DNA from: Pseudomonadota bacterium
GTDB lineage: Bacteria > Pseudomonadota > Gammaproteobacteria > Acidiferrobacterales > Acidiferrobacteraceae
Assembly (NCBI GenBank): GCA_021827145.1
Contig: JAKAXK010000009.1
Location: 1-42,423 of the forward strand
DNA length: 42,423 bases
Reading direction: 5' to 3'
Position numbers and translations under genes: made by a program. The notes beneath the pieces are model-generated. The model saw only the letters and a program-made list of their open reading frames with translations. It ran no database searches and was not told the DNA's origin. Shown piece after piece: positions 30,081 through 33,668 of the stretch; the first letter of the stretch is position 1; each line of letters starts with the position of its first letter.

Positions 30081-31880
30081 GTGACGTTCGAAGCGGCGGG
30101 CACGGGGGTGAAGGGGCTGCCGGCGGCACCCCTGGGAGCGACTGAGGTCCAGCGAGAGCAGGTCGGTCTTATATACGCCAGCCTGCCGCCGGGGCTGCTG
30201 ATCACCGCGGTCAATGCCACCATTCTCGCGTTCATGGAGTGGCATGTCGTGCCGCAGGCGCGCATCGCCGCTTGGCTCTTGGCGGTGCTGCTTGTGGCGG
30301 TCGCGCGTTACCGACTGGTCGGGTACTATCGTAGGACACCGGAGGCCCACGATACACGCACGTGGGGCCGCTACTACGCCATCGCGACCGCAGCGGCGGG
30401 GCTCGTGTGGGGCGCGACCGCCGTGTGGCTCTTTCCACAAGCGCTGTTACCGCAGGTGTTTCTGTTTTTCATGCTCACGGCCATGACCGTGGGCGCGGTC
30501 GTCAGTTTCTCCGCGATATTTTCGGTCGCCCTTTTATTCGTCGTTCCCGTGTTGGCTCCCCTGGCGCTGCGTCTCTTCGTTTCGGGTGGCCGTACGCATG
30601 AGGCCATGGCCCTGGTCGCGCTTGCGTTCATGGGGGTCATGCTCCTGACAGCGCGACGCGTCGAGCGCACGATCATGGCCTCGCTGCAATTGCGGTTCGA
30701 GAACCGCGGTCTCATTGCCCATCTGGAGGCGGAGCAGGCCGCTGCCCACCGCTTGAATGAGGAGCTGAGACGCGAGGTGGTCCTCCATAGTCGCACGGCG
30801 GGGGATCTCAAGGAGCGCGAAACGTATATCCGCGCCGTGCTTGAGCATGTCGAAGAGGGGATCGTCACGGTGGACCGTGCCGGCTGCTTGCGATCCTTGA
30901 ATCGCGAGGCTTTGCGCATATTCGGCTACGAGGAGGAGGAGATCATAGGGTCCCACTTTTCGCAGCTCGTCCCGGCCGCCGAGCGCGTCGAGTACACACA
31001 GTTTCTGGAAAGCCAGATCGAGCGCGCCGGCGTTAAGTTCGCCGGACATGGCTTGGAAGTCAACGGTTTGCGGCGGGACGGCACTGTATTCCCGATGGAA
31101 CTTGGCTTGAGCGCGATGACGGTGGGTTCGGAGCGTGGGTTCGTCGCCGTGACCCGTGATGTGACGAATCGCCGACGCAGCGAGCAGTTGAAGAGTGAGC
31201 TGGTGGCCACCTTAGGCCACGAGATCAGGACGCCGCTCACCTCGGCCTTGGGTTCGCTCGGGCTCTTGACCGAAACCGCTACCACCAAACTTGCGAGCGA
31301 TGACAGGCGCCTTCTCAGGATCGCGCGCAGCAATATGGAGCGCTTGGCGCGTACGGTCGCCGAACTCCTCGATGTCGACAACAATGATGCGGCCACCATG
31401 AAATGGACGCTGGCGCCGCTTGTACTGGTGCGCCTGGCTGAAGATGCGGTATCCGCGGATGCCGATTATGCCCAGGCGCGGAACATCCGTCTCGCCCTCG
31501 ATCCTTGCTCGAGCGCGGCCGTGATTCAGGGGGATCGGGGCCTGCTGCTGCGCGCCGTGAGCCATCTCTTGATCAACGCCATCCATCTCGCCCCGCCGCA
31601 TACGACCGTCGAGGTCGCCGTTACGACCGAAATGGGGGTCGGCGTCGTTTCGGTCCGCGATTGCGGTGTGGCCTTGCCCCCGGAAGCCCGCATCCGCCTG
31701 TTCGATCCGCAGCCCGGCACGTCAGTCCGCGGCCGTGTCGCGCCCCGCAGTCTCTGGGTGGCGCGCGCCATCGCCGAGAAACACGGGGGTACCGTAGGCT
31801 ACGAGGCGCGCGAGGCCGGCGGTTCGCATTTCTTCCTGCGCGTGCCCCTGTTTGCCGTTACAAAGGCCGGTAGAGCTTGA
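30081..31880 (+). CDS. Membrane PAS-domain sensor histidine kinase
   Basis: N-terminal multi-TM region; PAS 'ILEHVEEGIVTVDRAGCLRSLNREALRIFGYEEEEIIG'-like; HisKA 'LVATLGHEIRTPLTSALGSLGLL'; degenerate ATPase C-terminus. Confidence 0.87.
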   Translation: MTFEAAGTGVKGLPAAPLGATEVQREQVGLIYASLPPGLLITAVNATILAFMEWHVVPQARIAAWLLAVLLVAVARYRLVGYYRRTPEAHDTRTWGRYYAIATAAAGLVWGATAVWLFPQALLPQVFLFFMLTAMTVGAVVSFSAIFSVALLFVVPVLAPLALRLFVSGGRTHEAMALVALAFMGVMLLTARRVERTIMASLQLRFENRGLIAHLEAEQAAAHRLNEELRREVVLHSRTAGDLKERETYIRAVLEHVEEGIVTVDRAGCLRSLNREALRIFGYEEEEIIGSHFSQLVPAAERVEYTQFLESQIERAGVKFAGHGLEVNGLRRDGTVFPMELGLSAMTVGSERGFVAVTRDVTNRRRSEQLKSELVATLGHEIRTPLTSALGSLGLLTETATTKLASDDRRLLRIARSNMERLARTVAELLDVDNNDAATMKWTLAPLVLVRLAEDAVSADADYAQARNIRLALDPCSSAAVIQGDRGLLLRAVSHLLINAIHLAPPHTTVEVAVTTEMGVGVVSVRDCGVALPPEARIRLFDPQPGTSVRGRVAPRSLWVARAIAEKHGGTVGYEAREAGGSHFFLRVPLFAVTKAGRA

Positions 31881-32295
31881 TGCCGGAGGTTCCTGGACCA
31901 TAATAGTCGGGAAGCTCTTCGTGTTCCTCGAAGCCGAGGTCCGCGTAGAGGCGCCGGGCGCCCAGATTGGTGTTTTTTACCTCCGCGCGCATGGCCTGTA
32001 CCCCCTGTTCCCGCAACCAGGCGAAGGAGGCCCCGAGCAGGCGTTTGGCCACACCTTTGTTACGGTGCGCGGGGTCGACAGCCAGGGAGTAGAGGCGGCC
32101 CCAGCGTTTACGTCCATTGGAGGCGACCAATAGACAGGCGGCACCCTCGAACTGGCCCGCCACGAACCATGCGCAGTGGGGGCTTGCGAGTTGATAGCGG
32201 AGTTGGCGGCGATGAAAGAGCCCGTCCCCGGCCGAGAAGCAGCGGGCCTCGAGGGCCATAAGGCCCTCGAGGTCGGCCAGGCCCGCTCGCCTCAA
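31858..32295 (-). CDS. GNAT family N-acetyltransferase
   Basis: 'RLYSLAVDPAHRNKGVAKRLLGASFAWLREQG...LGARRLYADLGFEE'; TTG start overlapping the upstream stop. Confidence 0.88.
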   Translation of the reverse strand: MRRAGLADLEGLMALEARCFSAGDGLFHRRQLRYQLASPHCAWFVAGQFEGAACLLVASNGRKRWGRLYSLAVDPAHRNKGVAKRLLGASFAWLREQGVQAMRAEVKNTNLGARRLYADLGFEEHEELPDYYGPGTSGIKLYRPL

Positions 32296-33377
32296 CGGAT
32301 TTCCGCCGGGACCCGCCGGTGGAGGATCACCTTCTCGCCGAACATGGCCGGTCGGTAGCTCATCTTGACGCGCCGCAGGTTTTCGAAGCCGAGGTCGTCG
32401 CCCACATTGATATAGGTGGAGTGTGCGAAGACCTTGGTGAATTCCCGGAACAGATATTGCGCTGCCCCCTGAATGTGGAAATTGGTCTTTTCGATAAGGA
32501 CGTTGGCCACGTCAGGGCTCAGGCGCTCCCCGAATGTGAAACCTTCCAGGACCCCGTCTATAAAGAGACAGAGCCCTTCGAGACCCAGCTCCTCGTAGAG
32601 GGCGATGGTGCGGTTGATCGCCTTGCGTTCGAGCTCGAGATTGTAAAGGAAGTCCTCGAGCGAGCCCTCGGGGAGCGCACGGATGCGGTTCTCCGTCCAG
32701 GTATTGACCAGGCTGCGCGCCGCCTCCCGATGTTCGGTGGAGAACGGCACCAGTGTATGGTTCGGGTAGGCGCGCCGGAATTGGTTGATTTCGTTGCGCT
32801 TGGTCTTGAAGGCGTTGCCGCGCAGCTCGATCAGGTCGGAGGTGCGGTAGATGTAGTCGGGGTTTGTGACCTCGACATGCCAGCCTTCACCCTCGATGAG
32901 GGGCGCGCCATCCTCGGCATGATCCAGGATCTGAAGAAAATCCTTGTACACGAAGTCCAGACGCGCCTGGTAGGGCGATGGATTGTATTGATCCATGATG
33001 CGGATACAGGTCTTCAGTGCACGCTTTTGTTTATGCGGCTCGCCCAGCGGCGGCAGGAGCATGGTCAGGCCATTACCGGATAGCCCAAAAAGGCAGAAGC
33101 AGCCTTCTATGATCTGATAGAAGCCGCTGGCTTGATAGAGCCAGATGACGTTGTTCGCGAAGCTGTAATCGGACAGGGCCACACCCAGACGTGCGACCGC
33201 ATCGTCGAAGTAGGGCTTGGCGTTCTTGTCGAAGGGGAAGAGTCGATATTTGCCCGAGACGAGGTAGCGTCCCTGCGGTTCGAGACGTCGGCGATTATCG
33301 GAGTCGAGGGCTTGCGGGCGACCCTTGGCTGGCGTGAGGAAATGCGCGTCCATCACGGCGTTGACGGCGTTCAACAT
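32292..33377 (-). CDS. DUF2156 / phosphatidylglycerol lysyltransferase C-terminal-like (GNAT-fold) protein
   Basis: 'NPDYIYRTSDLIELRGNAFKTKRNEINQFRRAYPNHTLVPFS' and 'FTFGERLSPDVANVLIEKTNFHIQGAAQYLFREF' resemble DUF2156/LPG_synthase_C. Confidence 0.82.
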   Translation of the reverse strand: MLNAVNAVMDAHFLTPAKGRPQALDSDNRRRLEPQGRYLVSGKYRLFPFDKNAKPYFDDAVARLGVALSDYSFANNVIWLYQASGFYQIIEGCFCLFGLSGNGLTMLLPPLGEPHKQKRALKTCIRIMDQYNPSPYQARLDFVYKDFLQILDHAEDGAPLIEGEGWHVEVTNPDYIYRTSDLIELRGNAFKTKRNEINQFRRAYPNHTLVPFSTEHREAARSLVNTWTENRIRALPEGSLEDFLYNLELERKAINRTIALYEELGLEGLCLFIDGVLEGFTFGERLSPDVANVLIEKTNFHIQGAAQYLFREFTKVFAHSTYINVGDDLGFENLRRVKMSYRPAMFGEKVILHRRVPAEIR

Positions 33378-33414
33378 GCTTCCTCCCAGGCGCGCGCTGA
33401 GCAGGGGAGGAAGC
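33378..33414 (-). promoter_or_regulatory. Shine-Dalgarno-sequestering stem upstream of the DUF2156 start
   Basis: mRNA GCUUCCUCCC (33414-33405) pairs perfectly with GGGAGGAAGC (33387-33378), which abuts the AUG at 33377; 17-nt loop. Confidence 0.7.
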
Positions 33415-33504
33415 TCGGTTCGGGGGGGTCGTTGTCTGTTTTTTCGATCTCGAGTGTCACGCGTTTGTCCTCAGGTCGGCCTCTCGTGGCCAAATCGTGC
33501 CCAT

Positions 33505-33527
33505 AAAAAACGGGGCTAAAAGCCCCG
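33505..33527 (-). terminator. Intrinsic terminator (minus strand)
   Basis: Minus strand CGGGGCT-TTT-AGCCCCG followed by TTTTTT. Confidence 0.88.
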
Positions 33528-33578
33528 CGTACCGTGTACGGTGATTTTGCTTCGACTTTCGGTTGACGTTCAAGCGAC

Positions 33579-33668
33579 TCACGACTCTTTCGATGTCCTC
33601 TTTTTTCGTGTCTGTGCCGCGCGCGATTTTCGTACGCGGCCGACACGACCCTTGACGGGTCTTCCCAT
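33579..33668 (-). CDS. Candidate 29-aa Lys/Arg-rich small protein or leader peptide, or part of a small RNA
   Basis: ATG to TGA frame: MGRPVKGRVGRVRKSRAAQTRKKRTSKES (12 of 29 K/R), between a good promoter and an intrinsic terminator. Too short to appear in the ORF track. Confidence 0.4.
   Translation of the reverse strand: MGRPVKGRVGRVRKSRAAQTRKKRTSKES

Follow-up and report, generated by a model that had tools for sequence, protein, structure and literature searches.

What controls a gene whose entire ribosome binding site (RBS) is buried in a perfect stem that ends at the start codon? The question is posed by a locus in the window, by which we mean the whole 42,423-nucleotide stretch that was analysed, from the MAG of an Acidiferrobacter relative. 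Read on the minus strand, the AUG of a DUF2156 gene is immediately preceded by GCUUCCUCCC, a 17-nt loop and GGGAGGAAGC (5′ arm GCTTCCTCCC at 33414-33405; 3′ arm GGGAGGAAGC at 33387-33378; ATG at 33377-33375). The hairpin as a whole (33378..33414, minus strand), delimited by pairing and covariation across genomes and by its single site per genome, consists of an outer 10-bp stem (33414-33405/33387-33378), a 2x2 internal loop, an inner 5-bp stem and a 3-nt loop; the window's copy combines a perfect outer stem with a degenerate inner one. The Shine-Dalgarno (SD) sequence of the gene, GGAGG (33382..33386, minus strand), falls entirely within the 3′ arm. An initial annotation had described a perfect 10-bp stem with a 17-nt loop abutting the AUG and a fully paired SD; the geometry is confirmed on the minus strand, and RNA folding indeed pairs the entire SD (MFE -22.8 kcal/mol over 67 nt, z -2.2). 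It had also allowed that the true start codon might lie further downstream. The start MLN, MLK or MLS is, on the contrary, found at a position conserved in 25 relatives, the sole nearby alternative (Met9) is without an SD as read from the sequence, and the annotated start codon appears credible.

The hairpin is an extreme outlier among gene starts. We scored, for each gene start predicted in the window and in 400 kb of one same-genus genome, together about 440 kb, the longest perfect Watson-Crick stem ending no more than 12 nt from the start. The DUF2156 gene, with 10 bp, is the only such gene among 278 predicted starts; the next best is 8 bp (one gene), nine genes reach 7 bp and the mode is 4 bp. 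A covariance model finds one hairpin site per genome, always at this locus, in 17/17 genomes of two genera, and also gives weaker scores for the hairpin's own reverse complement. The best match elsewhere in the order has an E of about 0.007, and none has a comparable score. A dispersed repeat is ruled out by the single copy per genome.

Comparison of relatives indicates that the hairpin is a real, selected RNA structure. The initial annotation had proposed a search for covariation, and this is what the gapless 37-nt alignment of 17 genomes from two genera (Acidiferrobacter and a sister genus) contains: 92.2% of cells are paired, counting the ten outer pairs, the 2x2 internal loop and five inner pairs, against at most 57% in slid controls, and compensatory double-sided changes occur at 6/15 pairs. 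None of 500 shuffles reached the observed pairing or covariation score, a test that is inflated by kinship among the aligned sequences. Pair 7 changes from T-A to C-G in L013 and L014, with T.G intermediates, and in doing so alters two residues of the leader peptide discussed below (CTC to CCC and GAG to GGG); it was therefore probably kept for the RNA. Pair 10 changes from C-G to T-A in L015-L017, and several further pairs of the inner stem change among relatives. The sequence of the loop is not conserved. Under a synonymous-codon null, local MFE lies below the null mean in 17/17 genomes, with individual fractions of 0.013 to 0.35. The same null applied to SD pairing is not discriminating: SD pairing is common in such GC-rich leaders, and its fraction is not unusual at most loci because the residues FLP...EE by themselves render the two arms complementary.

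A second, conserved open reading frame encloses the entire hairpin. This leader ORF (33371..33460, minus strand) has a GTG start, 29 codons and a TGA stop, and would encode the peptide VTLEIEKTDNDPPEPSFLPCSARAWEEAC*. Its own SD, GAGGA, is located 7 nt before the GTG (33468..33472, minus strand, from the sequence), and a purine run of the GGAG/GAGG type stands upstream of the leader starts of relatives. The ORF is present, at 26-34 codons, in 25/25 relatives from the two closest families, f1 (18 loci) and f5 (7 loci), and at all 25 loci its stop overlaps the DUF2156 start as ATGYTRA (ATGTTGA in the window). Among 14 genomes of the genus, leader codons 2-17 have a pN/pS of 0.22, compared with 3.14 and 1.31 in the other two frames. 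The codon table for the same 14 genomes defines a core, N-D/E-P-P-E (33419..33433, minus strand), of which the amino acids P-P-E (codons 12-14) are invariant while both Pro codons vary synonymously. Protein constraint is relaxed in the hairpin-forming codons 17-29 (pN/pS 0.68). An SD of its own and purifying selection specific to one frame, both from sequence comparison, mark the leader as a coding frame under purifying selection that is predicted to be translated. The leader peptides matched no family in an NCBIfam search. At such a length the leader readily escapes gene finders, and a conserved peptide of 26-34 residues would therefore go unannotated.

Taken together, these observations make it likely, in our view, that the leader ORF is translationally coupled to DUF2156, which it controls, and that the hairpin serves as the lock. 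Ribosomes would enter the mRNA at the leader's own SD. When the leader is untranslated, the hairpin in its second half would pair the whole DUF2156 SD and the gene would be off; a ribosome translating the leader would traverse both arms, open the hairpin and terminate at the TGA inside ATGTTGA, whereupon either the terminating ribosome or a fresh 30S subunit on the freed SD would start DUF2156. The GNAT gene would follow DUF2156 via a further TTGA overlap. Since a conserved, covarying RNA structure hides the SD, the hairpin very probably governs how DUF2156 is translated, and the position of the hairpin inside a leader whose stop overlaps the ATG in 25/25 loci, the stop-start arrangement of a coupled gene pair, points to opening by the ribosome. 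Further points favour coupling: in the melting simulation the stem is too stable for spontaneous opening, the stem codons are relaxed as protein, there is one hairpin per genome, always at the DUF2156 start, and L026 has an independent 9-bp stem that sequesters the SD at the same position. A point against coupling via the stem is the degenerate inner stem of the window's copy. Comparison of genomes, then, shows conservation, at one and the same place, of the leader ORF and its coding constraint, of the overlap and of the hairpin; we infer from it that the stem is opened by translation of the leader, on which expression of DUF2156 would depend. The suggestion of the initial annotation that the structure regulates the gene through its SD thus stands on the conserved, covarying structure; two of the agents it had named, a thermometer and a riboswitch, find no support, and it had missed the leader ORF, conserved in 25/25 relatives, that surrounds the hairpin.

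The phylogenetic distribution suggests how such an arrangement may have arisen. The DUF2156 gene occurs in 36/57 genomes of the order. The SD is sequestered in two genera; L019, of genus g3, and most members of family f5 possess the leader and overlap without a comparable stem, so that coupling cannot depend on the stem everywhere. It also follows from this distribution that the hairpin arose after the leader ORF did. With the leader and overlap predating the hairpin on this comparison, coupling by overlap probably came first, and the SD-locking hairpin was probably added afterwards, as a reinforcement, in two genera. In another family, at L026, an unrelated 9-bp stem (GCGACCTTC/GGAGGTCGC) ends 5 nt before the DUF2156 ATG and hides the SD, which suggests convergent SD locking there.

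Regulatory uORFs that sense ribosome stalling are exemplified by the erm leaders. Unlike those and the stalling uORF of topAI-yjhQ, our leader contains in EPP only a candidate pause site, known from sequence; the E. coli topAI-yjhQ uORF resembles it in lying upstream of the gene it controls (PMC12121999). The closest described case is mgtQ-mgtB of Salmonella, where a short ORF frees a sequestered RBS and by which ORFs of this kind are established (PMC8092293). As we infer here, translation of the short ORF would likewise release the downstream RBS from a stem-loop that inhibits it. However, mgtQ, at 8 codons, acts by way of alternative stem-loops and of ribosomes destabilised at Asp/Glu (PMC8092293), whereas the present leader has 26-34 codons, holds both arms of the stem and has a stop that overlaps the next start. 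Coupled overlapping gene pairs also share features with this locus, namely a downstream SD that lies inside the upstream ORF and is hidden by structure, and a stop/start overlap (PMC12548453; PMC6728339). They differ in that the upstream ORF here is a tiny conserved peptide and not a full gene, and in the overlap, which is ATGYTRA as opposed to ATGA or TGATG. Both models of translational coupling presented in these sources, RNA unfolding (PMC12548453; also PMC6728339) and termination-reinitiation, fit our observations.

The regulated gene (32292..33377, minus strand) encodes a DUF2156/LPG_synthase_C protein of 361 aa with a tandem-GNAT fold of the MprF/FemX type. The match to PF09924 (LPG_synthase_C) has an E of 1.4e-32 and 113.4 bits against a curated cut-off of 27.5, and the nearest solved structure is 2hqy (profile match E 1.2e-32). 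A Foldseek search with the model of a relative returned 2hqy, followed by MprF/A-PGS C-terminal domains and FemX. The stand-alone DUF2156 protein 2hqy from Bacteroides, the MprF/L-PGS C-terminal domain and FemX all share the same tandem-GNAT fold; the present protein differs from MprF in being without its membrane domain. On these models the product is a probable aminoacyl-transferase with the fold of aminoacyl-tRNA-dependent transferases. Downstream lies a RimI-like GNAT acetyltransferase gene (31858..32295, minus strand; PF00583 E 1.8e-16, NCBIfam rimI below cut-off), whose TTG start overlaps the DUF2156 stop (TTGA) and which is probably, from this arrangement, a third coupled ORF. The DUF2156-GNAT order is kept in nearly all relatives. 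The two genes (31858-33377, minus strand) also stay adjacent across gammaproteobacteria, and this adjacency suggests a putative two-enzyme modification pathway. Upstream of the leader ORF is a predicted intrinsic terminator (33504..33528, minus strand; GCGGGGCTTTTAGCCCCGT + TTTTTTATGGG), which could close the transcription unit before it or act as an attenuator. With such a strong terminator directly upstream of the leader, a promoter of its own would hardly fit in between, and transcription of the leader operon may begin inside the terminator or rely on read-through. Between DUF1841 and the terminator there is a small basic ORF, MGRPVKGRVGRVRKSRAAQTRKKRTSKES (33579-33668, minus strand), which matched no NCBIfam family and had no tblastn match in relatives at 1e-3.

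The conserved EPP core of the leader admits further explanations, of which the best surviving is that the leader is a functional micropeptide, the EPP tail of DUF2156 having become detached and being supplied in trans, with coupling to equalise dose. We regard this as a tentative possibility. Relatives lacking the leader ORF (f7 and other gammaproteobacteria) have DUF2156 proteins nearly all of which start M/V-L-x-x-x-[D/E]-E-P-P or nearly so, E-P-P following in frame after a few residues, and the first half of the leader is strongly constrained (pN/pS 0.19-0.22). The split-type proteins, moreover, form one clade (SH-aLRT 100) among the fused-type; it is nested there at weak support (82), on a long stem branch and with an uncertain root, and a single derived change likely underlies the split type on this tree. 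However, the tail around EPP in the fused relatives is otherwise variable, and in the AlphaFold model of one leader-less relative it is undocked and predicted to be disordered (pLDDT about 27-32 for residues 1-30). In the split type the main ORF keeps its length, with a conserved N-terminus of its own, MLNAVNAVMDxHFLTP, and homology cannot be proved from 3-4 matching residues.

An unlikely though conceivable addition to coupling, rather than an alternative to it, is that the leader peptide is a sensor. A pause at N-E-P-P-E would tune opening of the hairpin, and DUF2156 would respond to EF-P activity or prolyl-tRNA charging in the manner of the erm and mgt leaders. Consistent with this, PP is invariant and EPPE sits directly 5′ of the stem at a constant distance in both hairpin-bearing genera. 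The first Pro codon is CCC or CCT in 25/25 leaders and CCC, CCT or CCA in 17/17 fused relatives; CCG occurs in 0/42, even though it makes up 59% of the first codons of PP pairs in the one same-genus genome that served as codon-usage reference. As the sequences are related, these are not 42 independent events, and that kinship, like the use of one genome's codon usage, weakens the argument. Geometry also speaks against a sensor: by our estimate, a ribosome holding the second Pro in its P site would reach with its leading edge over only about 5 nt at the beginning of the 5′ arm, so that a pause there leaves GGGAG of the SD paired and frees only the outer half of the stem. The literature describes CCC/U-C pairs as frameshift-prone and selected against in E. 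coli (PMC8129111) and lists EPPP among the stalling motifs tested (PMC4176338); in these passages on stalling motifs, stalling at EPPE itself was not found. The first-Pro codon pattern, together with the EPP core that opens the DUF2156 protein in leader-less relatives, hints at either a ribosome-pause element or a detached N-terminal motif. A broader proposal, which we consider distinctly improbable, is that the conserved EPP element acts in translation wherever it occurs, causing a proline pause via slow CCC/CCU-C pairs; in Acidiferrobacteraceae and the sister family it would sit in a separate coupled leader and, combined with the newly evolved hairpin, would form an EF-P or prolyl-tRNA sensor. 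As to the EF-P machinery, EpmA (genX, above cut-off), the enzyme of EF-P lysylation, and DUF2156 share a distribution among the families of the order: each occurs in f1, f5 and f7 alone and is missing from f2, f3, f4 and f6. Within f7, EpmA also occurs without DUF2156, and the co-occurrence therefore shows nothing beyond shared ancestry. A search for EarP gave no match, and its control search was likewise empty.

The remaining candidates fare worse. It is very improbable that the hairpin is a riboswitch expression platform, or a protein or sRNA site at which the stem is opened or stabilised. A conserved two-part hairpin with a 2x2 internal loop that sequesters an SD is what such a switch might look like, but no Rfam family comes near threshold (a permissive search gave chance-level matches only), the loop is not conserved, and the conserved sequence upstream behaves as codons (pN/pS 0.22, in one frame) and not as an aptamer; the riboswitch of the initial annotation is accordingly not borne out. 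Programmed -1 frameshifting that fuses the leader to DUF2156 appears extremely unlikely. The DUF2156 frame is indeed -1 relative to the leader, EPP stands in frame in relatives and the window's own copy has C CCC CCC, but slippery X XXY YYZ heptamers are present in only 3/25 leaders, at two different places, and in L020, L022 and L023 the main frame stays open over no more than 12 nt upstream of the ATG. With no conserved slippery heptamer in the overlap, we reject it. Least credible is the RNA thermometer that the initial annotation had named as one option, for which an SD fully paired in a hairpin adjoining the AUG would speak, and in which the stem would melt with rising temperature and expose the SD: there are ten perfect pairs, predicted SD opening is <0.1% up to 50°C and ~3.5% at 90°C, so that the simulated stem does not melt in the physiological range, and the structure is absent in part of the clade.

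Coupling of DUF2156 to its leader is probably, on strong comparative support, a new instance of leader-ORF-coupled translation that is ordinary in mechanism; a search of the available literature for an earlier description found none. The comparative support is unusually clear, with RNA covariation inside a coding leader and an overlap kept in 25/25 loci. What appeared to be an RNA thermometer becomes a concrete and testable case of leader-ORF coupling, and the EPP core at the N-terminus of leader-less relatives provides a handle on whether the conserved element may act as a peptide or as a pause in translation.
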